Source: Paramacrobiotus metropolitanus | Taxonomy: Eukaryota; Tardigrada; Eutardigrada; Parachela; Macrobiotidae | Direction: 5' to 3' | Assembly (NCBI RefSeq): GCF_019649055.1 | Contig: NW_026570224.1 | Location: 2,976,001 to 3,040,000, forward strand | Length of the DNA: 64,000 nt | The notes under the pieces: generated by a model | The model's database searches: none | Told to the model about the DNA's origin: nothing | Seen by the model: the letters and a program-made list of their open reading frames with translations, nothing else | Program-made: the position numbers and the translations under genes | Shown here: positions 32,023 to 47,205 of the stretch, piece after piece | Numbering within the stretch: the stretch's first letter is position 1 | Layout: the number at the start of each line of letters is the position of its first letter

Positions 32023-34488
32023 ATGGGCTCAAAGATCTTTCCCAGGCGCTGCTGCCGGAATGTGGGCGTTCTATCCTATCGCGATTGTCTTCCCGGGAAT
32101 AAATCGCTGGTGGCGGGAATTATTGTCTGCCTCTTGATAGTCACTTTTCGAGTGATGATCTGCCCGTGTACCATATGTCACAGCCAGTGTCGCTGCAGCG
32201 GTGACGCAGTGTTATCGCGTGGTCCGGTTTGTCCATCGCGAGCGCACTGGTATGGCACATCAGCTTATCCCACCGTCGAAGGTCGGAACCAGTCATGGAG
32301 TTGGTTGATGACCTTTGTAGAGTCGGTGGCGAATGCTACAACGGACGATGTTTTGGATTGGGAGATATTTCTCGAACGGGTAACGGATGATAGCGCGATG
32401 ACCTTGGATTCGGTCAGGTAACTGTAATTATTGCTGTATCTGTAGGCGACCGCTCGCGGGAAATTGAGTTCTACGTATTAAAAATGAAGCATTCACTGAT
32501 TCCGAACTAACGGCTATAAATATTATTAAATTAGTGTCCAGCCAAAAAGTAGTAAATTTTCACGAAAATAAAACAGACCCAATTTAAAGAAGCTGAGGCA
32601 TAGGGAAAAAAAGCCACTTCGTATTAGTCAAGTTCTGCGTCGACGATACTGTCTACTGAAGTATGTGCAGTATATTTGCGTTGTACAATACAGTGCGCTT
32701 CAATGCATTTAGGATAATCAATCAGCTTTGTTTTGTTTTCGATAATTTATTTTGATAACTAGTAGCCGAGCGTTCAATTTTGTATTACAAAGTTTTGCTG
32801 AGATCTGAAGTTGTATCCCTGCTGTGCACTAATTATTGGAACGATTACAGGTTTAGCGGTGCATTACTGTCTGATCCCGAAAAAGATCTCGAAAGAACGC
32901 AGAACATGCGGAAATGGGCAATGGATCGGGTGGAGTGTTTTACTAAATTATGCGATGCGAAAACGGAAGCGAAAACATCTTTAAGAAACCATCCACCTGC
33001 TTTTACCGGGCATATCGTGTTTTTGAATTTTCGCGATGTCGATATTTATGATATAGAGAGAACATTAAAAGGGATCCTTCGGTCCCCGTACATCATCACT
33101 TCCTGTACAGCTGGTAACTGATTGATCACTTTCATGACAGTTGTACAAATTTATTTATCCTATTTTAACAACAATGTTAAATTGGTTCAACTCATTGTCA
33201 GTGTAACTGTTCAAAAATATTAATTCGTGTGTCATACTGTTTTGTAGTAAAAACGGCGTCGAAAACCGTTATCCTTAGCTTGGAATGAGCTTTTTTACAC
33301 ACTGATGCCGTCCTAATTTCAGACTTTCCAATTTCTCCCCACGAAGAGGACACCGGTTTAGCGTTATATGACCTGTTGAACAAAATGTTCTTTGAGCTGG
33401 ACTGGGTGCCGATTTTGTCCGACATTAGTCGGTGTGTGAGCGCTAAATCCGGTCCATGCCATTTTTGGATCATTTGGAAAGCTTGGAATTCTGGTGCGAA
33501 ACCCTCATATATTCCTCCGGCCGGAACTGGTAGTGCCGAATTCGAAATTCAACGTCTTTCTGCTTTAGTTACGCATCCTCAGTCAGGTAACAAACAGCAC
33601 TGGACTCCTTTAAAGTGGCACATGATTACTGATTTCCCATTTTCTTGTGTTAAATTGAGTACGATAATTGTTTAGTACAGCAATGTTTACATTGCAAATT
33701 ATACAGTTGCAAGAGCGAAGTGGAAAAGCGACTGCAACAATCATTAAAAAAATCTTTTTTAAGCTGAACGAAAAAAAACGATTACATGCAGCTGTCGGGA
33801 AACGGCATCGCATAAAGGGATGACCTTTGCAGATACATGCCGACGTAGACAGCGAATTGGTGGTACGTGGGAAGAGTTCGGCTTTATCGATGGCCAGTGG
33901 ACCGTCTGTTTGGACCCTCTAGAAAAATCCATGGCATCCGGGTCTTGCCTAGTCTACAGTTTTGGCGTGGGTAAGGACTGGTCATTCGATGACGCCATGC
34001 ACGCGCTGGGCTGCCGGGTGTACTCCTTCGACCCTTCCATTAAGACGGCCTCGTACCAGCGCAACCGTCACCACTACTTTTACGACTGGGGTTTAGTCAC
34101 CGGCGGAGCCCGTCATCCCCGGTGGATGCTGCTGTCCTACGACGACATCCGACGGCGCCTTAACCACGACGACCAGCGGGTGACGGTGCTGAAGATGGAT
34201 GTGGAGGGCGCGGAGTGGATGTTCCTGAATGCTACCAACATCAGCCATCGTTTGGCGGAGGTGGACCAACTGGTGCTAGAGATCCATACGCCACGCTATG
34301 CCGACTGGCGCAAGGGCGTCAAATGGCGCTCGCTGCTGCTGCACAATATTGAGAAAAATGGGTTTGTGCTGTTTAACTCCAGGATTAATCCCCTGGGTGG
34401 AGATTTGCGGGCGTACAGTCATAAAAAGTTTTTCCAGAATTCTAAACAGATTCTGGTGGAATTGTCATATATGCGCTGTGCCGGATAA
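32023..34488 (+). CDS. METTL24-like membrane-anchored methyltransferase
   Basis: Four in-phase exons: 32023-32417, 32851-33113, 33323-33586 and 33833-34488, giving 525 residues. An N-terminal signal anchor (SLVAGIIVCLLIVTFRVMI) implies a type II membrane protein. The luminal stem includes HFWIIWKAWNSG. The C-terminal S-adenosylmethionine-dependent fold shows CRRRQRIGGTW, YSFGVGKDWSFDDAMHALGC (binding loop), YSFDPS, and KMDVEGAEW, as in METTL24/FkbM-like proteins. Substrate is unknown for this family. The last exon is distinctly GC-richer than its neighbours. The ATG at 32023 is chosen because it precedes the membrane anchor; the frame is open further upstream without an ATG. Confidence 0.85.
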
Positions 34489-35093: not shown

Positions 35094-35648
35094 TTAGCCT
35101 TGTGTTGGTGACTGCGCTAGCAGTGCCAAACCCAGTAGCAGGAACGGTAGCATTTGACTCATGTCATCTCCGCCGCCGGACGATCCTCCACTTCCACCGC
35201 CTCCACCACCACCGCCTCCATATCCACCGTATCCCCAGTCATCATCCCCACCAAAGCCATCATCATCGTCATCCAACAATAACAGCGCCGCAATCAGCGC
35301 TGAATTATCTCCATTCCCACCACCAAACTGCCGCCCGCTACGCACATCCCCGGTAACATTAGCCAGTTGGGCGGTGACATTGGCCAGATTAAATCCTTCC
35401 GGTAACTGCAGTGTACCGTTCTTCATTAAGAGCTTCAAGAGACGCTTCAGCGTCTGTCGGTATGCTGGTGGAAGCTTGAAACGGTGTTTGTGGTCCGAAT
35501 TATTCCGGGCTTGGTGATGATTGATAGTATTTTGAAGGGGATCGTTGCTGTCAGGGGCGAGTGACCTTCCAGCCACCGGCGACGTACAACACCAACACAA
35601 TAGTATCAGCAGACAGCATGCGATACTTCCGAAAACTGCGTAGCCCAT
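35094..35648 (-). CDS. Secreted Gly/Asp-rich protein, member A of a new three-member family
   Basis: Single exon, 184 residues. A signal peptide (FGSIACCLLILLCWCC) is followed by a polar region with N-glycosylation sites, a basic amphipathic segment (RQTLKRLLKLLMKNG), NVTAQLANVTG, then NSALIAALLLL immediately followed by DDDDDGFGGDDDWGYGG, a poly-Gly stretch, and a hydrophobic C-terminus LLLGLALLAQSPTQG. The same layout and terminal PTQG occur in the minus-strand gene at 37412 and, with an extension, in the plus-strand gene at 46348. No known domain is recognised. The Asp cluster could bind metal; that is inference. The proline-rich frame on the opposite strand (35161-35517) is only its shadow. 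Confidence 0.75.
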   Translation of the reverse strand: MGYAVFGSIACCLLILLCWCCTSPVAGRSLAPDSNDPLQNTINHHQARNNSDHKHRFKLPPAYRQTLKRLLKLLMKNGTLQLPEGFNLANVTAQLANVTGDVRSGRQFGGGNGDNSALIAALLLLDDDDDGFGGDDDWGYGGYGGGGGGGGGSGGSSGGGDDMSQMLPFLLLGLALLAQSPTQG

Positions 35649-37411
35649 TTTTGACTTTTGGCTAGCAGAAACCGAATATGCGCTTGGTTCTTCGTGCTAT
35701 CGACAGTGCAGATAACAAAAGGAAATGATTTCCGGTAAGCGCATTTTAAGCGCTTTGCAACTTTGTATGACTAAACTAACCTAATTTGGTGCGCGTTGAT
35801 TATGGCTTTTTCAACACATTTCCTAAAATCTCGACACACACGGTGCACTAAACTTGTTGATCTACATTTTTTAAATAAGATGTACTTGATGACGCAATAA
35901 TTATAAGTTATCCCGGCTACTTGATTACTTGGTGCTGCCAGTGTTAATTATGATTTGCAGCATTTAGCGACATAATTTGAATTTGTCAAAAGTATGTATG
36001 TAGCGCAGTGATCCCGCCCAGTATAAAGAGACTGGTTTCTTACCAAAGATGAAATTTATCAGCACTTTTTAAGAACAAAACTTTGAAATGAATATTATGT
36101 AATGCTGTATATAATCATGATACGAGTGCAAAAGTTGACATAAAATTCCTTTTTTTCATAGTAAAATTTGAAATGCATTAGGTCTTGAATCAATTTCTTT
36201 CTGCAGAATCACGATCCTGCATTAGCATTTCTTGTCTCTTGATGATGTTTGTATGCATCGTATGTGCTTGTATATATATACGAGTATATAGATATTATTA
36301 TGGTGCGGTTGTCCTATATACATATACTGCGAAGTACAAACAATGTCCCTGCTTTTAATATTACCGCAAAAAAAATTTGTTCTACTTAAGTACATTTATT
36401 ATTATTAACACTAGCTTGGAACCCCTACTCTTTGTATTAATTTTTCTGATTTTATTGACTGGTAAGTTAATCTTTCCGTAAGCCCCAATATCACTGGAAA
36501 TAGTATTCTGAAAATACTCGCATACACGCAACGGTAAAGCAAAAGAAAACTTACTACCACCCCCATGCTAATCCCGAAGCAGCATGGGGGGATTTCGTAA
36601 ATCGTTAAAATTGACATTAGTTCTACCACTCATGTTTGCCTAATTATTATGTTTTATTTACCTAACTTATTTTTGACAAATTTATTGACAACTGGAACTT
36701 GATGCCCAAAGCATTTAATGTGAATTAAAAACGGGTTGCCGCGATTTGGAATTATGCGTTTCTGTTGTTTTTTTTTAAATATCTGCGTGAAATGTGGGCG
36801 TGACTCACTATCAAGTGAGGTTTGGTTAACGGCATTGTTTTTTAGATTTAAAGCTGTTTAAATTAGAAATCCTAATCAAAAGTAATATGTACAATTAAAA
36901 TGGTGTGCAAGGGAGTTTTAGCAGCGGCTCTCTGTGCACATACAAATTAAAGAGGAATGCGATTTGAGTAATGGGTACAATTCCCGAACAGGATAGTACA
37001 AAGGAAGTGTTTCTGTTATAAAATCCAGTTTTACGTTGGTACTAAGTTTTTACTTGTATCGTGATACTTATTAAAGGTACCTCAGTAAATTCTTATACTT
37101 CGAAGAGCAGTCAGTGTGTACAGTTTTCTGTTCAACAATTTGCATATAGTAAGTCTGGAAAGAGACCATCACACTTCGCGAATGAGATGCCACAGTAAAC
37201 CAGAACCCTGCGACGAAGTTAAACGGCGAGTGGATATGGCATAAGACATAATGACAATTAGAAAGGTCACAGCTACAATGCCCAGAATACCAAACGTCTT
37301 TCTCTGCATAAGATCTGCAAGGTATCGTGCAAAAAGGTCACAACTCACAATCATGACAAAGTCATGTACACATAAGGCCATACAGTCAGATGGTGTTGCC
37401 GTTGACAAACT
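35649..37411. other. Intergenic region between the two minus-strand family members
   Basis: About 1.76 kb, AT-rich, with short TA-rich runs near 36270. A minus-strand frame at 37169-37408 encodes a membrane-like segment (VAVTFLIVIMSYAIS) directly after the stop of the next gene and is probably its 3' UTR. Another at 36411-36629 has no support. Confidence 0.4.
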
Positions 37412-37879
37412 TTAGCCTTGAGTGGGAAATCGGGAGATGAGCGCTATACCCAAAAGCGTCAATGTTGCTAATGAGGCGAAATCCGGCTGATTGTTCTGTT
37501 GCGGCATGGGACGCGGCCAGTCGTGATCACGATGGCGATCACGCAGTAACAACGCCAGCAGCAACGAATTCCCTCCACCGAAACCTCCACCAAAACCTCC
37601 AAATCCAAAACCGAATTGTTTGGCCTGGCGCAGTGCGGTGGAGTTATTGGAAAACGTCTCGTTGATCAGCGCTTTAATCTCCTCTGGTTTCATGGCCTCC
37701 ACACGTTTCATCATCTCCTTCAAACCGGCGCCTTGGCTGGAATTGAGAAACACTTCCAATCGCTTCTGGATGGATTTCTCATCGAGAAGGGCTTTGGCCT
37801 CCGGTAACGCCGGTATAAGGTTATCGGCATAAATTCCTATGCCACATAATACGAGAAAGCTAAGGATATACTTGAGCAT
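37412..37879 (-). CDS. Secreted Gly/His-rich protein, member B of the new family
   Basis: Single exon, 155 residues from the ATG at 37879, which opens a signal peptide (LKYILSFLVLCGIGIYA). A TATAAAA box at 37961-37955 rules out the longer open frame that starts at 38041. The mature protein has a helical region (KEMMKRVEAMKPEEIKALIN) with NNST and NETF glycosylation sites, a Phe/Gly run (QFGFGFGGFGGGFGGG), then NSLLLALLL followed by the charged block RDRHRDHDWPRP, a Gln/Asn spacer, and the hydrophobic end TLLGIALISRFPTQG. It shares architecture and end motif with the gene at 35094; here the Asp cluster is replaced by His, Arg and Asp. Confidence 0.77.
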   Translation of the reverse strand: MLKYILSFLVLCGIGIYADNLIPALPEAKALLDEKSIQKRLEVFLNSSQGAGLKEMMKRVEAMKPEEIKALINETFSNNSTALRQAKQFGFGFGGFGGGFGGGNSLLLALLLRDRHRDHDWPRPMPQQNNQPDFASLATLTLLGIALISRFPTQG

Positions 37880-37954
37880 TTTAGCGGACAGATACTGTAT
37901 CTCCAGCAGCATACACTTACGTAATGATCGATGGGATTGGTTTGTGACTTTGGA

Positions 37955-37961
37955 TTTTATA
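37955..37961 (-). promoter_or_regulatory. TATA box of secreted family member B
   Basis: TATAAAA on the minus strand, about 76 bp upstream of the ATG at 37879. It lies inside the longer open frame and so argues for the shorter protein. Confidence 0.55.
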
Positions 37962-38924
37962 TCCATGTGGTGAGAAACTACCGGTTTCTGCCAAAGGACA
38001 CGAATGCCAGACTGGTTTGATGACATTTTGCAAATCTCCAAAGAGATGGAGAGGCACGCTTTGTGATGGTATTACGCATTGTTGCAGTGATCTATTGCAG
38101 TAATTGCGGAGAAGTCTGTAGTAACGAAAGGAGCGGAATTGGGGTTAATTGGCGAGCTCGGAAACGAGCAAACTGGAAACAAGAATAAAAAAACTAGCTG
38201 GTCTGCAAGAACGAAAACGAAGCAGAGCCATCATAAAGTCGGGTACAGTATATTGTACTGCAGGTTAGCAGAATTAAGCCGTACTTTGAGAAGGTCGGTG
38301 TGCATAACTGCCATTCTGCCATAGCATCCTTGCCTCCAACAATTTTGCTTCGTGAATCACTATTTATACTAAAAATAAATACTGTATGCCTGACACGAAA
38401 AACGACTTTTAATAAATTTTATAAATAAATAAATGGCCGAGAAGATAGCTGTTGTGATCGTATATACTGCGGCTTTCACAAACGTTCTCTGTAATATTGT
38501 AAAATCCAAAAACTGTAAAGCATTTTTGATGTCAGTAAATAATGAAATAAAACGGTGTTATTCTTTATTGTAGCTAGTACATAGTAATTACGGTTTGAAC
38601 TATGTACATGTAAATACTCGTACTTCACAATTGACACTAATTAAGAAGCCATTATCCATGTTGAAAGGTAAAATACATGGACATATATGATCTATACTGC
38701 ACTGGTGATTTTGACCGGTGACAGTAGTAATACACTTGAGTACGCTGCTAAGGCTAATTTTAAATTTTAATGGTCATGCATTGGCGACCACATGTTTGCA
38801 GCCGAAAACCTTCTTCACGTGAAAAATATTTGGAGTTAATTCATTTGTGCATGTATTGATATCCAAATTTTTAGCAGAACAAAAGCAATCAATAACAATT
38901 TCGCGACTACAGAAAAATAATTAA
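37962..38924. other. Intergenic region
   Basis: About 960 bp between divergent genes. No coding frame with support. Confidence 0.4.
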
Positions 38925-40760
38925 ATGAGCAAAATTAATTTTTCATTTGCCAGAAAGCGTGATTGTAAAACTTCTAACAAGCGTCTGATTCTGACTGTTT
39001 TATGTTTTTGTTGCGTATATGGCACTTTCGTATTTATCCAACTGGTTTATAATAGCGTTACCACAAACGCTAATCTAGCGCTAAAATTGCACTACGTTTG
39101 GATAGAAAACCGCGTGAGCAAATTTCCCCGCGATCTCACCGCTTTGCAGTTTTTATCCATAATATCCGCTTTGACGCAGCTATCTCCAGTCAGCATCTAT
39201 CTGCATTCTAATACAAATTTTTCTGGACCATTGTGGGACAACGTTAAAACCCAAGTGCAAACAGTAGATATTCGCGTTCCGTACTTCTTGAACGGCAAGC
39301 CAATTCTGCATGTTCAACATCAAGCCGATTTTATTAAATTACAAGTGGCCTATGAAACGGGCGGGTTTTTTGCTGATTTCGATATATATTTCACCGGAAA
39401 TCGTGGTAAATTTATGCAGTTACTGCAGCAGTATGAATGCATATTTACCCCATTTAAAAGAGAAGGCCGGACGCTGCTAGCCATTGGAAATTTCGCTTGT
39501 AAACCAGGCAGCCGATTTATTCAACAAGTATTACTCGAGTATGAGGTGAATTTTCGTGGACATACGAAATGTTATTCAAACACCGATCCCGTGCCATATT
39601 TATACAATGGATGCTTATTTCCATACGTTATCTATTTGCAGAACAAAGCCTATCACAAGGCAATTCGGCTGGAAAGATCGTTGTTGCGGCTATTTAATAA
39701 AACCCGTCATTTTTTGCATGAAACTGGAAAGGTTAACTGGTCCGGTCAGTTGAATGTGCACAGTGGCTACGAGGGAAAAGACATGCAGATGCGCGATATC
39801 TGGCGATTGAATTCGTCGTTTGGAGAAGTTTTGCGTTGTACCTACACAAATTTCTTTCGAACTACTGCATCCCGTAGTTGCTCCAGTGATGCCAAGAATT
39901 CATATCGTCACTTGTGCTACTCTTTCGAGAATGTACAAAAGGATAATTTGCGTGATTTGTCTGTTGCTCAGTATTTGTCGGTCTTTTCGGCGGTACATAA
40001 TGCAAATGTAGACGCCATCGAGATCCAATTCGATGGCGGAACCGAGTTGTCCGGTCCGTATTGGACGAGTTTGAATCATCTTGCATCTCAAAGTGGTGTT
40101 GCAGTTTGTACACGGACGATATTCGCTGAGAAGGACAAGAGCCTATCTGACCATTGCATAACATCTAACCATTTTTTTCTCGGTAAAAATTTCGAGCAAA
40201 TAAGCAGCAAAAACAATTTTTCCAGCGGACTGGATTCTGAATTAGGTAAGCAGGCTGGATTTACGAATGCATAATAATGCTTATACAGTTCAAGTTTACT
40301 AGCTACGCATGCTCATTCAGTGCATAACGTGCGCTAACAGAGTTTTTAATCTATTAATTTGGTCTGTCAAAATATATGCATTGTTAAGAGAAATTTTTAA
40401 TTTAACAATTATTAACATGGTGTCGCTGTTTATCTATCAACGTTATAATGCGGGAATCGCAATAAGTTTAAATTTTTGAAATAGATACTTTGTATTCCAG
40501 AATGGATACCGCATCCCACCGACAACGGCAAGAAAACAGCGGCAAATGTTTCACAGATGGCAAATTATATGGGAAAAATAATGCTTGACACAAAGAAAGT
40601 CATAATTGATAAAAACATTTTTTCGCTAAACGAGAAACACATTACTCTTGACTGGATCCGGAAAAGCAAAAGTTCGTTGGGTCAACTGTTACGGCTGATT
40701 TACTTTAACGAATCAACTTCCATCAAAGACAATCTCTTGCACAAATATGCTTGCCCATAG
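38925..40760 (+). CDS. DXD-motif glycosyltransferase with a degenerate second half
   Basis: Two exons, 38925-40245 and 40501-40760, giving 526 residues. A type II signal anchor (LILTVLCFCCVYGTFVFIQL) precedes a Gly_transf_sug-type domain: a conserved His/Asp pair in HQADFIKLQVAYETGGFF, then the donor/metal site ADFDIYF (residues 151-153), as in Golgi sugar transferases of the alpha-1,4-GalT/GlcNAcT and Och1 type. The substrate cannot be assigned. Residues about 67-104 (DLTALQFLSIISAL, then NTNFSGPLWDNV) resemble residues about 342-380 (DLSVAQYLSVFSAV, then GTELSGPYWTSL), which suggests an internal duplication whose second copy lacks the DXD. The last exon, after a phase-1 intron, ends LHKYACP. 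Confidence 0.75.
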
Positions 40761-41042
40761 AGAACTTCAGATTTTGCGTTGAATTTTTTTCTTTTGCTAT
40801 GGGCGTTTTACTCTACAAAAAAATGTAATAACTGATTCTTCAGTACTGGCCATGGCTTATTAAATTATAAAGGAAACTTTTAACATTAGAAACTTCTCTT
40901 GTTAAAATGTGCAAACGTATTCAACAACTGCTGTGATATTCTATTATTAACGCAAACCTATTCGATGTCCCAGAAACCTCTGCTTTCGCACGTGTTAAAC
41001 ATAAGTACTGGTTTTGTAATCAAGTACACTCCGCTATACTGG

Positions 41043-41622
41043 ATGAATTTCGTATTATATCAGCGTTTCAGAACGGCGACAAAGAATCTTGCCAGACATT
41101 TATTTATCGTGACTGGTTTTATCTTCATAATGTGGCTGTTATCGGACAGTAGTTCATATAGTGCGTCCCCTCTGACGGAGCTTCAAGAGATCGAAAAGGT
41201 CAGTGCGGCTGACCCGCACCGCTTTTTGTTCATGGAATGGCAGCGCTCCTTTAAAAACAACGGCCTCGGCAATCACCTGTTCTGGCTCGCATCGCAAATT
41301 GGAATTACTAGTTATAATCATTTTACTCCTGTTGTGCCATCATATTCACCTTTGGTCATTAAAGGCTGAACCGAGGCATGCATCTGTAAATTCCAACAAC
41401 CTTACATTAACTTTATTGTCCGATGTTTTCGCGGCAAATACTTGCAATGATTTTAAACACGGCGAAAATGTCTTTTGTAACCACAACTGGATATTCCGCA
41501 TTAGGAAAGAGGGACAAACATCCATAATATCACAGGCGAACTGCAAGAACTGTTTTGCGAAGTCGATAAAATCCGACGATATATTCAATCTCAATCCATC
41601 TAAAGGAAGAAAATACTGCTGA
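41043..41622 (+). pseudogene. Fucosyltransferase-like (GT11) fragment with a frameshift
   Basis: The frame starting at 41043 (open upstream to 40899) encodes a signal anchor (LFIVTGFIFIMWLL) and a segment FKNNGLGNHLFWLASQIGIT, the family's GLGNQLF-like nucleotide-sugar motif. It stops at 41367-41369. From there another frame continues as AEPRHASVNSNNLTLTLLSD and on to KSDDIFNLNPSKGRKYC, ending at 41622. Dropping one G near 41363-41366 joins the two. Even then the C-terminal half, including the family's HxRRGD-type motif, is missing, and a polyadenylation-like AATAAA follows at about 41670. This is a truncated gene or relic, or a partly sequenced gene with a base error. Confidence 0.5.
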
Positions 41623-41887
41623 AATCATGAAAAAGTGTGAGCCGATTATGAAATATAGAACTAGACACTAATAAATAAATCCCACTTTATTTAAAAAATA
41701 ATTTATTATCTCCGCAAGCCGAACAAAGAACTAAATATTGCTTAGATTGCTTAGTAAAATAACAAACTTGTTGGTACTCGTAAGACACGAGCGATCAGGC
41801 CATGCAGGTTGCACCGAGGAGAAGAAGGAGACAGTTAGTAAATATCTGTAGCGGGTTCTCAAGTTCTCATGCCGAGCAAGTGCGCAG

Positions 41888-44728
41888 TTAAAACGTAACA
41901 CCACAATCAGATTTCACCCCACGTTCAGATTTACCATCCACCAGCAGTACAGAACTGGTTAGAAAATCCCTTTGACTACTGCTCCCTCTTCTGCCGCGGT
42001 GCCCCGTCAAAAAGGCAGTATTACGGAACAGCGCACCGACATAAGCCACAGCTAATCCCAGGCCCGATGATGCGAATCGGTCGAGGTAGTCTTTCAGTGC
42101 TTCTTTGCTGTCGAAAACTGTCGGCTGCATTTTAGCACCCTGAAATTTCAGTATCACATGTAGGAAACCACCGTTAATAAGAGTAATTTTTAGGCCTCCA
42201 GTAACTTAACATACGTAAATAGCAGATATTTCAAAACTGCTTATGTGCTTATGCATTCTACAACCCATTGCCGAATTTCTTAAATTTGAAATAATGCCAC
42301 TAAAGCAATGTTTTCACCTGCAGGGCAGTTGTCTGTAATTCAGCAAAGCGGTCCACTTGAAAGGCAATAAGCCGCACACAGTTGTCCTCCATGCACGAGT
42401 CCAGTAACGCCGTGATATCCATTCCAACCAAAGTAGCCTATACAAACGATAAGGCTCACATCAGACAAAAGCGGGATCGGGTGTGTCGCATACTTTCAAA
42501 TAACTGCTACAGCGAATTCTTTAACTATAATTTTCACTGGCTGAAACACATGATACATACCTGGTTGGAAGACTCCCGGATAATTTTTATGCATTCAGCA
42601 GCGACAGAAAGATTTGGGCTGTCAGTGAATAACAGATCTTCGTGCTGAGAAAGGAATGTAGTAAGATGGAACCGCACCCATCCAGTTAGAGCTGTACAAA
42701 ATCAATTTGGATTCAATTAAATGCTGCACACTAATTTGTAAATACAATCAAACTGCGAGACACTATTAATTTATGTCTGCATTTCAAATTTCTTGCACTG
42801 TGTGCTTACTTTAGCCAAGATGACCACGATGTGTTAAACCAAAACTTATTATTTGTCAGGGATGTTATAACGATGCGCAACCAAGATTTAAAGTGTCAAA
42901 TAAGCTGAATTAATTTTCACCTTTTACCTGATTTGCACTTCGGGCTCTGGAAGCCAAATTCTTCGTAGTCCAATACGGTTTTGGAAAGGTGCTTAAAAAA
43001 GGCCTCACTGCGTTTCTTCATATATACAGGTATACTTCCTTCCATTTTTATTCCCGAAACGGTCAGCTTCAACATTCTGGTATGGTTATCCAGAAAAGTA
43101 ATGCCAGCCTGTAACCGCAAATCAAAGTTAAAAAAAATTACTCGCAATTTTCGAAATCTTTGGATTTTTACTTCGTAGCTACGGTTGAGCAATTTCAGGT
43201 GCTCAGCAAACTGCTGGCACAGTTTGGTATCCACTCCGAATGGACACTCCATAGCACTTTTGAGTCCTTGCAACAGCCGCTCAATTAAGCCTTCCTCCAC
43301 TTCCAAAACCATCCCTACGAGAAAAAAGCATAGTTTTTTTAAGAATCGCAAAACCATAATAACCTCACGAAAGTGCATTACTCAACGTTTCAGCAAACTG
43401 TTCAACAAAGCAATCCAATTTTGTGAAAGGCGTGAATTTATCCGATGTACACAAATTTTGTATCCAATTTACGAACTCAATCACAAAAAAATTACGAACA
43501 ATTATGTTATTAGCGTACACAATTTAGAGGCGTTTAACAACTAAAATTTAGGGAGTTTCTGTAGGAAGTGTTGTAAAAAACCGCTTGAAATAATCATTGT
43601 AAAACGTTTATTTGAAGTTCGAACATACTATAGAAAGGTTCAGCCTGTGCAATAACTGTCTGGTCGTTCAGCGCCTGGTAAAACTCTCTGGCTTGGCCTA
43701 ACAGACGAACAGCCGCAACAAAATTACGCATCTCATAATGATCCTCCATGTCCGTAGCCGCATCTTTGAACCACAATGGCAACTGAGAGTCTTCGTGCGT
43801 TTCCGTTTCTTCGTCTGTCCGGAAACGTTTAACGATCCCATCCAGCGAGCTAGTCTGAATAATAGCGGCTCGTCGATTGCCAGCGCCTGAAAAAAATCAC
43901 CGTAAAATCTGGAAGAGGCTACAACCATGCACGAGCGAAATTTTTTAATTAACCAAATAAAAGGAAAAATACCTCTATAAAAATCAGACAACTGCGCCTA
44001 CGACGAACGGAAAAATATCCATCGATATGATGGTAAAAATCTGCGATCATCATCACAATCACATCACACCAACCTCGACGCGCAACTAGTGCTTCTTCCG
44101 AAGTTTCCACCGCATTGTCTAGAGCGGTTTTTTCATCAACCAGCGTTGCCTTCAAGTCCGCAAGATTTTTTTCCAACTCTATAAACATTCTGCTTATAAA
44201 GTGTTTGCAGATGCCTGGGAATAATAAAGACCGTACGCTGCATTTCCTTGGACGCGTTGATGATGACATTGTGGTATTTGAAGGCATTCTTTCGCAACTC
44301 CAAAACGGCATTTTCCTTGTGTTCAGCAAATCGTCTACGCGTGGCTTCAATCTGCGCTACACCGTTTCCCCGCGAAATTAGGTTCGTAATTTCTGTGGAA
44401 CAGGGATATGCTTAAACTTTAAAGGAACCATGATCATGTCTTCAAAAAAATGCGTTTACCAGAGTTCGGATCGAAATCCCGATTGTATAGGCGCTCACGA
44501 ATGTCCGTTCTTTGTGATCGTTCCATTCCCAAGGTCTTCAGTGGAAGCAAGAAATCAAATTCATTTAGCTGTCCGTTTTGTTCCTATGAACCGAAGGCTG
44601 GTCAAAAAATAAATAAATTCTAAAACATCTAAAAATTCAAATGTTCGAATGTAGAGCAAAACTGCAAATTAAGTTTTGCGGCGCATGTTTACCTGCTGGG
44701 GCGGCTGTTCCTCGGGGCGGTTGTCCAT
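41888..44728 (-). CDS. EXOC8: Exocyst complex component 8 (Exo84)
   Basis: Subunit of the exocyst, which tethers secretory vesicles to the plasma membrane. Nine exons: 44728-44693, 44583-44460, 44392-44237, 44178-44074, 43886-43629, 43314-42928, 42691-42561, 42437-42318 and 42139-41888, giving 522 residues (human 725). Alignable landmarks in order: RERLYNRDFDPNS; the N-terminal coiled coil IEATRRRFAEHKENAVLELR; NASKEMQQLEKNLADLKATL; ATDMEDHYEMRNFVAAVRLL; GITFLDNHTRMLKL; SGIKMEGSIPVYMKK; NLSVAAECIKIIRESSNQ; GMDITALLDSCMEDN. The pleckstrin-homology region of the human protein is not evident, and the C-terminus is shorter. Assignment rests on collinear weak similarity and consistent splice phases. 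Confidence 0.82.
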
Positions 44729-46347
44729 AGTTTTTTTTTTATTTACGACAGATAGCTCGAAGATGGCAGCTACCTAACTTAACTTTTAAAAAAAAATATT
44801 CCCATAAGAAAAAATAAAAAAATTTAAAAAAATTTTTCCCATTTGCTGTTAGCACCTTAACCTTTAAAGCGCTTTAATTTAAGACTGTAATCACTGGGAT
44901 GCAAATCAAAAAGAACATAGTTATGACTTCAGCATCTGCATGTGAACACTGCACCAGGGAGTCCACAAGCCAGAGAAAACTTCCGGCGGTGTTGAATGTT
45001 GATCCATAAATCCGTCATGGACGGGCTATAAAAGAATTCCATAATCAGGCGATTTCAGAATTAATGCGCGATATACCCTTCTCTACCTGGTAGGCATTAG
45101 CAGGTTAGCACCGCCACCGTGATGATGTACGCGTAACGCGGTACCTTTTATTGTAAAAGGCTGGCAATAATTTATTACTGATTGAGAGACACGCTCTTCG
45201 GTTTTGAATTTCATGGATGATGGATGACAATTTTTTTGTTTTGTACAGTCCGCTGACTGTATCCGTATTTCCAGTTCGGACAATAGGTTGTAAATATTTG
45301 ATTTCTGGAAGCCGGCGCGGAAGTGGAGGCTTCGGTACCGGTACTCATAACGGCGTAGCTACGACTACGAGTACTTCTATACCAGTATAATTATAGGTAT
45401 TGTAGCATATGGTTTGCATTTCGCTTGGTGTGATTATGTGGAATACTCAATATTTTATTGGAGATACAGCGCAGCAATAACTAATTCCTGCAATACAATA
45501 ACAAGGCCGCACCATGGCTTCTGAGTGTTTTAAGCTTAAAATATCATACTGGCAATATTAATAGAGGTTAAAAAATGCGCTATTTCTAAAGTGTTTTAGA
45601 TGGCGCTCAACCCGTAGAACTGTATTTAGGTATTCCATCACTAGTTAACATCGAAGGTGTATTACTGTTCGCAAACTATTTTGGCTGTGATTAACATTCC
45701 TACTTTTACTAATGCCTTTATTATAAGAGTTTATAAATATATATAAGTACAAAAACGCACTGATCTTGCTCCTGTTTCCCGGTTTTTGTTAATTAAGATC
45801 TTACAATCGATAATATTAATTCTGGATCAGCACATTGTATTTGAAATTTAGGCTTGAAACGACTGTAAGTTTGTATTTCGTCGGCACAAACCAATTCAAT
45901 TTATATTTTTATTTTCTTACGTACGTAGTCATAAAAAAGTGTACTACTTTATAGTACTTTATGTGCTTTATTAGAAGGTGCACGTAATGCGTCAATTAAC
46001 GTCTTCGCGAGTATTGTGTCACATGTTTGGGAATAAGTGCTGTAATCTCAATCCGGATTCCGATGGCTTCAAAATGCTTTCATGCTCTACTTACTGTCAG
46101 AAATTTCCAAAGATGCTAATTATCTAATCAAGTATACCAATTGTTTAATAATTAGAACACCGCTGGAGCTATCAAGCATAACATGTTTTGCTATTGTTAA
46201 TTGACTGTTTTTTGCTTTGTGCATCAGCATTTTGAAAGCCTTGCATGTGATAAACCGCACCGCAACCTACCACGTCCGGCAACAGTCGAGTCATGTTGAG
46301 GCGCAATCTGACAGTAAATATGAACAGAAAGGCCCTGCCGCTTCGGA
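44729..46347. other. Intergenic region, no supported gene
   Basis: About 1.6 kb, very A/T-rich near 44760-44850. The minus-strand frame at 45083-45283 has no support. Confidence 0.4.
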
Positions 46348-47205
46348 ATGAATACAGGATACCTAACTGGATTACGCATCTGTTCCTTATTAATTCTCTT
46401 CGATGGAATAGCATCAGTCATCGCTGCTCCTGTCACGTTAACTAGACAGACCAGCGCCGGCAATGACCTTTCCGTCTTACAGCAGCAAATTATGCTGTAC
46501 CGCATCAAGCATAAACTGCCAAAAATCATGGATTATATCAGCAAACATCCGCATGCGGTGGACTGGAATTTGTTTGCCACTGACAAAACTAACCGCACTT
46601 CGCGATTCGTGGATCCGGTATTGTTAGCGTTGCTGCTAGCGGACGATGATGATCTCCCGAGCTATCCACGTCCGGTTATCGCCCAGTCCAACGGCGGATT
46701 GTCCGAAGAGGGTCTGTTGAACTTGGCGTTTATTGAGATGGTGACCATACTTGGACTGGCCATAATATCCCGATCGCCGACACAATTAGCGCCAGTAATC
46801 CTACCGGCTGCGATCCACACTCACAGTGATACTGCTCAGCGCCCCATGCCGGAAAAAGACGAAGATAAGTTCCGCTCGCCCACGGACGTTACACTGGGCG
46901 GATTTCATCCTTTAGAAGGCCAGATCATCTTGCCAAACAAAACAAAAGTGACAACACCATGCCACTCCGGATGTGACCGTGACTGGGATTCACAATCTGT
47001 CCCGGATGTGCTGCATGTAGCAGTTAATTTCGACGGTGACCAGTTGAATAATGTCAGAATAATAAATGAGGGTATCATTGATAGAACCCTCGTTAACGTG
47101 GTCCAACAGACAGAGTACCAGTCCAAGATGAAACCCAGACGCCTGTCTTCCGGCGGTCGCCGGAGCAATTTTCGTAATGCTTTTGATCTCGATGATCAGC
47201 CTTAA
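46348..47205 (+). CDS. Secreted protein, member C of the new family, with a C-terminal extension
   Basis: Single exon, 285 residues. A signal peptide (ICSLLILFDGIASVIAA) precedes a basic helical region (LYRIKHKLPKIMDYISKH), the glycosylation site NRTS, then DPVLLALLLADDDDLPSYPRP, a short linker, and ILGLAIISRSPTQ. Unlike members A and B the protein does not end there: about 130 further residues follow, with CHSGC and a conserved-looking stretch LHVAVNFDGDQLNNVRI, ending in a basic tail. The core (LLALLL, acidic block, PRP, LGLAIISR, PTQ) is the clearest bridge between A (Asp cluster) and B (PRP, ALISR). Function unknown. Confidence 0.75.
   Translation: MNTGYLTGLRICSLLILFDGIASVIAAPVTLTRQTSAGNDLSVLQQQIMLYRIKHKLPKIMDYISKHPHAVDWNLFATDKTNRTSRFVDPVLLALLLADDDDLPSYPRPVIAQSNGGLSEEGLLNLAFIEMVTILGLAIISRSPTQLAPVILPAAIHTHSDTAQRPMPEKDEDKFRSPTDVTLGGFHPLEGQIILPNKTKVTTPCHSGCDRDWDSQSVPDVLHVAVNFDGDQLNNVRIINEGIIDRTLVNVVQQTEYQSKMKPRRLSSGGRRSNFRNAFDLDDQP

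Follow-up and report, generated by a model that had tools for sequence, protein, structure and literature searches.

In a 64,000-nt stretch of contig NW_026570224.1 of the tardigrade Paramacrobiotus metropolitanus (positions 2,976,001 to 3,040,000, forward strand; hereafter the window), three genes, here termed A, B and C, had been picked out by a reading of the sequence alone as one probably undescribed family of secreted proteins. Our sequence comparisons support the view that A, B and C belong to one family and extend it to five genes; the relationship is supported through the C-terminal tail, a hydrophobic stretch (box 2) followed by PTQ or PTQG. We refer to this group as the PTQG family and to the two additional members, found on other contigs by searching the genome, as C125 and C18.

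The evidence comes from a profile built from B, C125 and C18 only and run on the 1649 open frames of the window. B ranked first, and C (expect value, E = 7.7e-5) and A (E = 0.011) followed, with the next frame at E = 0.6. None of 2000 shuffles of A, and none of 2000 of C, matched the score of the real sequence against this profile, shuffles absent from the HMMER output (638 for A, 849 for C) being taken as lower. When only the tail (box 2 plus PTQ) was scored, none of 1000 shuffles equalled the real sequence in A or in C; for the sequences stripped of their tail, 154 of 1000 shuffles did so in A and 22 of 1000 in C. Only the alignment of the tail carries significance, and it is therefore the tail that the tests establish as shared, while an upstream hydrophobic stretch (box 1) and the charged block that follows it were matched by eye. 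Box 2 and then PTQ(G) stand in the C-terminal part of all five members; box 1 and the charged block lie ahead of the tail in all five as judged by eye and, taken alone, are not significant in A and C. The charged block is acidic in A and C and rich in His/Arg in B, C125 and C18.

Positions and parts of genes A, B and C

The three open reading frames lie at the positions claimed for them and contain the boxes and charged blocks that had been quoted. As had also been read, A and B stop at PTQG, the stop codon being immediately 3´ in both. The parts are as follows, in window coordinates (those of the RSGR site in A were read off the sequence).

35094..35648, minus strand: gene A, 184 amino acids in one open frame, with an N-terminal hydrophobic signal-like stretch at residues 4-23
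35331..35342, minus strand: RSGR in A, a furin-type RxxR site, followed by QFGGG
35274..35300, minus strand: hydrophobic box 1 of A, ALIAALLLL
35235..35273, minus strand: acidic block of A, DDDDDGFGGDDDW
35097..35138, minus strand: box 2 and tail of A, LLGLALLAQSPTQG; the stop codon adjoins
37412..37879, minus strand: gene B, 155 amino acids in one open frame, N-terminus signal-like at residues 2-18
37619..37630, minus strand: RQAK in B, an RxxK site, followed by QFGFGFGG
37544..37567, minus strand: hydrophobic box 1 of B, SLLLALLL
37508..37543, minus strand: charged block of B, RDRHRDHDWPRP
37415..37465, minus strand: box 2 and tail of B, TLTLLGIALISRFPTQG; the stop codon adjoins
46348..47205, plus strand: gene C, 285 amino acids in one open frame, N-terminus signal-like at residues 8-25
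46591..46605, plus strand: NRTSR in C, an overlapping sequon and RxxR site
46618..46641, plus strand: hydrophobic box 1 of C, VLLALLLA
46642..46674, plus strand: charged block of C, DDDDLPSYPRP
46744..46785, plus strand: box 2 and tail of C, TILGLAIISRSPTQ
46786..47202, plus strand: extension of C, 139 residues with coding-like composition, absent in the other four members

The extension of C past PTQ had been noticed in the sequence-only reading, although its length is 139 rather than 130 residues. GC content at the first, second and third codon positions of this extension is 0.58, 0.40 and 0.50, and its codon score, trained on long unannotated frames of the window, is 0.190 in frame and no higher than 0.119 in any of the other five; the core of C gave 0.155 in frame and 0.159 in one reverse frame by the same test. 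An origin of the extension as a former 3´ untranslated region was dropped because the extension looks coding.

Two further members in the genome

In the genome assembly (169.8 Mb, 533 contigs), B as query found C125 with E = 6.9e-9, C18 with E = 0.0026 and C with E = 0.7. The core of C125 ends in LLGLALISRFPTQG and that of C18 in LLGLALIARLPTQG, each followed by a stop codon. In both genes, as inferred from sequence, the core occupies an exon of its own, preceded by a GT-AG intron (396 bases in C125, 433 bases in C18) which by reading is in phase 0 and lies 1-3 residues upstream of box 1, a place at which A, B and C are open. The upstream exons of C125 and C18 contain sequons for N-glycosylation, a glycine/aromatic tract and a region that looks helical.

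PTQG followed by a stop codon is found at 19 places in the genome, compared with 26 for the pattern written backward as a control. Two of the 19 are A and B, and two of the remaining 17, C125 and C18, were judged members by reading; some of the non-member frames fell below the 25-residue minimum of a scan with a profile of all five cores. That scan took in 3721 frames, drawn from the window together with 25 fetched stretches, and the regions of roughly 9 kb flanking the window, C125 and C18 yielded no other member. Whole A, B and C, spliced C125, the cores of C18, C and A, a consensus core, a consensus tail and the C18 N-terminal domain (N-domain), each used as a genome query, pointed to nothing convincing outside the five genes, in a search that scores best candidates only, exon by exon. 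Diverged members may escape such a search for this reason, as A itself was missed by the consensus query. A weak match to the N-domain, C144 (E = 0.83), was rejected after its sequence was inspected, and two weak matches to A, C68 (E = 0.22) and C37 (E = 0.028), were judged to be unrelated low-complexity frames. Other weak genome matches were C216, C2 and, with the spliced C125 query, C68:596176. Around a chance PTQG-stop match, contigs C85 (L010) and C99 (L013) have near-identical translated sequence, a likeness that we read as a repeat or a duplicated piece of the assembly.

The proposal that A, B and C arose by local duplication holds in part. The genes are clustered within about 12 kb, with C on the plus strand, opposite to A and B on the minus strand, but in a comparison of the five sequences the core of B is closest to that of C125 on another contig (61.5% over 52 residues, E = 5e-10). 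The best DNA match among the A, B and C regions spans 20 bases at the A/B PTQG tail (E = 0.033), the others having E = 0.12 or worse. Any duplication behind the cluster would thus be old, since the DNA of the three shares almost nothing beyond this tail match. Between A and B, at 36550-36610 on the minus strand, we also noted a strong hairpin whose inner stem spans 11 bp (-23.1 kcal/mol, z = -2.9, equalled by 1 of 200 shuffles). Rfam searched over the whole window, this hairpin included, returned no family at its gathering score.

A sequon-proximal RxxR/K border

All five members carry an RxxR/K site, RSGR in A, RQAK in B, RTSR in C, RTAR in C125 and RSAR in C18, located 1-6 residues beyond the point at which the final sequon ahead of box 1 begins, and just upstream of a glycine/aromatic or hydrophobic part. 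Neither this site nor the intron-bearing relatives C125 and C18 figure in the sequence-only reading. In C, C125 and C18, sequon and site overlap as NR[ST][AS]R (NRTSR, NRTAR and NRSAR, respectively), with glycine tracts following in C125 and C18. This overlapping pattern was found in 5 of the 3721 frames, three of them C, C125 and C18, while a sequon with RxxR/K starting at most 6 residues on was found in 5 of the 81 frames of the window that reach 100 residues, among them A, B and C. The weight of this evidence lies in the constant place of the site. Cleavage after RxxR/K would give putative mature parts of 78 residues for A, 68 for B, 69 for C125, 82 for C18 and 199 for C, with glycine making up 18-33% of these parts in A, B, C125 and C18 and 6% in C. 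Their predicted charge at pH 7 is -11.2 for A, -8.8 for C, +0.9 for B, +0.1 for C125 and +2.1 for C18.

Upstream of this border, a signal-like hydrophobic N-terminus is present in A, B, C and C125, as judged by hydropathy alone. Sequons are above shuffle level in A, B, C125 and C18, while C has two sites (p = 0.55) and is not enriched. A profile of the C125 and C18 N-domains was equalled by 91 of 2000 shuffles of A, 574 of 2000 of B and 1009 of 2000 of C; the C125 and C18 N-domains match each other weakly (E = 0.053, or 8.5e-5 with the glycine tract included). The common helical region with N-glycosylation sites that had been described for A, B and C therefore stands as a shared plan, but not as demonstrated homology, because the N-domain profile does not pick out any of the three.

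Structure prediction, which had been suggested as a check, placed helices at both boxes of B and C, but at a mean predicted local distance difference test score (pLDDT) of 39 for B (modelled from three sequences) and 36 for C (modelled from C alone), with block means below 50 at the boxes. Helices at both boxes of B and C are thus at most suggested by these models.

A proposed role as cleaved matrix components

We tentatively propose, with rather less than even confidence, that the PTQG family comprises secreted proproteins that are cut to give self-associating components of an extracellular matrix. The protein would enter the secretory pathway with its N-terminal half glycosylated, and a furin-type convertase would cut after RxxR/K, freeing a piece that begins QFG, DYG, GWG or FVD and measures 68-82 residues, or 199 in C. 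This mature piece could self-associate via the glycine/aromatic tract, which C does not have, and via the two hydrophobic stretches, which flank a charged, often Pro-rich turn. The fixed PTQG end may be a contact or processing signal, and the mature piece would join an extracellular matrix such as the cuticle or eggshell. A more elaborate version, which we consider a long shot, is a two-sided co-assembly in which convertase-released paralogues of opposite charge character, acidic A and C and His/Arg-rich B, C125 and C18, would mix by charge and be locked together by the common tail, forming an extracellular gel or coat that responds to pH or water.

Several observations weigh against this reading. 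The RxxR/K motif was picked post hoc and is not rare: a shuffled member has one or more RxxR/K in the stretch from residue 26 to box 1 with a probability of 0.30-0.59, the product over the five being 0.013, and the site in B is RxxK, which is weaker than RxxR. In C18, no signal peptide was found in the exon read, and the 3 kb upstream yielded one weak hydrophobic ATG frame (1077866), which was unconvincing. C has neither a glycine tract nor sequon enrichment. Mean hydropathy of box 1 is 3.21 in A, 2.97 in B and 3.35 in C, which pass a 9-residue hydropathy cut, and 2.14 in C125 and 1.69 in C18, which fail it. Finally, the structure models of B and C are of too low quality for a fold to be read from them.

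Other explanations were weighed on the same features. Glycine-rich antimicrobial peptide precursors, with a propeptide cut at RxxR/K and the terminal Gly converted to an amide (PTQ-amide), would account for the pro-site in all five members, the mature length of 68-82 residues in four of the five and the stop codon immediately after Gly in the same number. We regard this account as unlikely: the putative mature parts of A (-11.2) and C (-8.8) are, by general knowledge, unlike typical cationic peptides, this strong acidity speaks against a plain cationic peptide, and C is without the terminal Gly. Membrane-associated or -anchored surface proteins, with box 2 in the bilayer and perhaps forming a hairpin with box 1, appear quite unlikely. 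Box 2 exceeds the hydropathy cut in all five members, and the best 19-residue mean outside the signal reaches 2.16 in C, within the range of a membrane span, for which the usual 19-residue cut is about 1.6; the corresponding means are only 1.29 in A, 1.55 in B, 1.25 in C125 and 1.53 in C18, and C125 and C18 have a weak box 1. Read by eye, the C-terminus is polar PTQG in four members while C continues past PTQ, and such a polar end after Arg or Gln appears, again by general knowledge, unlike a glycosylphosphatidylinositol anchor signal.

The Asp-rich or His-rich block beside box 1 could instead point to metal-binding or desiccation-protective secreted proteins. With no conserved ligand pattern visible by eye in the block, no significance for the block once the tail is left out and, in A, B and C, no CD-CD motif of the kind that the available passages describe for the tardigrade Mn-dependent peroxidase (PMC9145152), we consider such a function unlikely. 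A different kind of doubt concerns membership itself, in that A, and perhaps C, might resemble the others through convergent low complexity, leaving B, C125 and C18 as the true family with C doubtful. A rests on some 15 tail residues at E = 0.011, its core as a genome query finds A alone and the consensus query misses it, while the core of C matches B with E = 0.09 genome-wide. This explanation seems similarly improbable to us, given that 0 of 2000 shuffles reach the score of A or C, that a stop codon follows PTQG in A just as it does in B, C125 and C18, and that RxxR/K occurs in all five members and three of the genes lie inside about 12 kb.

If the PTQG proteins are indeed secreted proproteins of an extracellular matrix, they would constitute a testable orphan family in which a small conserved tail might serve as an assembly module and in which clear predicted cut points would be available for peptide work. 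The family alone does not explain stress tolerance.

Neighboring open reading frames

Convergent with A, a methyltransferase frame lies at 33763-34485 on the plus strand (Pfam Methyltransf_22, E = 9.2e-17; FkbM, E = 1.7e-7). Also on the plus strand are an open frame of 449 residues at 38925-40274, hydrophobic over an N-terminal stretch and matching DXD glycosyltransferases below threshold (Gly_transf_sug, E = 0.0069), and a frame at 40890-41369 with a membrane-anchor-like stretch, the motif GLGNHLF and no Pfam match. We take GLGNHLF to recall alpha-1,2-fucosyltransferases. On the minus strand, the frame at 42920-43381 resembles the C-terminal part of exocyst Exo84 (E = 3.8e-5, below cut-off).

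Comparison with known families

The expectation that A, B and C fall into no described family was borne out within the Pfam, NCBIfam and PDB sequence searches. Pfam gave no match at cut-off for any of the five proteins, the best matches below cut-off being 'Glycine rich protein family' for C18 (E = 0.019), DUF2610 for C125 (E = 0.027) and DUF6272 for B (E = 0.17). NCBIfam gave none at cut-off for A, B and C (PA2779_fam for B, E = 0.034). Against PDB sequences, where B, C and the core profile served as queries and A was not run alone, only weak matches were found (best E = 0.092 for B and 0.29 for C) and none for the core profile. Among GTDB genomes, the B core gave 588 pattern matches, 0 of them confirmed, and the core alignment found no relative in viral contigs. 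The PTQG family is also undescribed in the titles and abstract openings of the literature covered, a scope that leaves out most subscription papers and bioRxiv preprints. On these sequence and text searches, the PTQG family appears new relative to Pfam, NCBIfam, PDB, GTDB, the viral contigs and the literature covered. Lineage-restricted secreted low-complexity proteins are a familiar kind, while neither the tail signature nor the predicted convertase border has, as far as tested, been described; the novelty of the family is real but modest.

Parallels in kind include the secreted low-complexity cuticle proteins of ecdysozoans. Much of the Caenorhabditis elegans pharyngeal cuticle consists of secreted disordered proteins, according to the passages available from one study (PMC9629831), and the IDPA, IDPB, IDPC and APPG proteins described there resemble the PTQG members, as predicted here, in being secreted, in having a disordered low-complexity body and in forming families of paralogues. 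Compared by description, the PTQG tail and the charged turn do not appear in those passages (PMC9629831). In C. elegans cuticle collagens, the N-terminal part is removed at a furin-type site by the convertase BLI-4, as reported in the portions available of a second source (PMC10538796), so that secretion and furin-type N-terminal removal are shared features of the BLI-4-cut C. elegans collagens and, as predicted, of the PTQG proteins (PMC10538796). Unlike these collagens, the PTQG members have no visible collagen repeats, and their mature piece is short.

Glycine-rich antimicrobial peptide precursors share, by general knowledge, the pre-pro-mature plan and a Gly-rich mature part, whereas two of the five putative mature parts here are strongly acidic and no Pfam family was found at cut-off. 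Among tardigrade proteins, the Mn-dependent peroxidase family of g12777 is similar to the PTQG family as proposed here, in the available parts of its description, in being lineage-specific, in entering the secretory pathway, in having several copies and in its acidic residues (PMC9145152). B, C and the core profile gave no PDB sequence match of note, in a PDB copy whose inclusion of the g12777 entry was unchecked. The PTQG genes differ from the peroxidase family in that the CD-CD motif, as those parts give it, is absent in A, B and C, with only CHSGCD present in C (PMC9145152).

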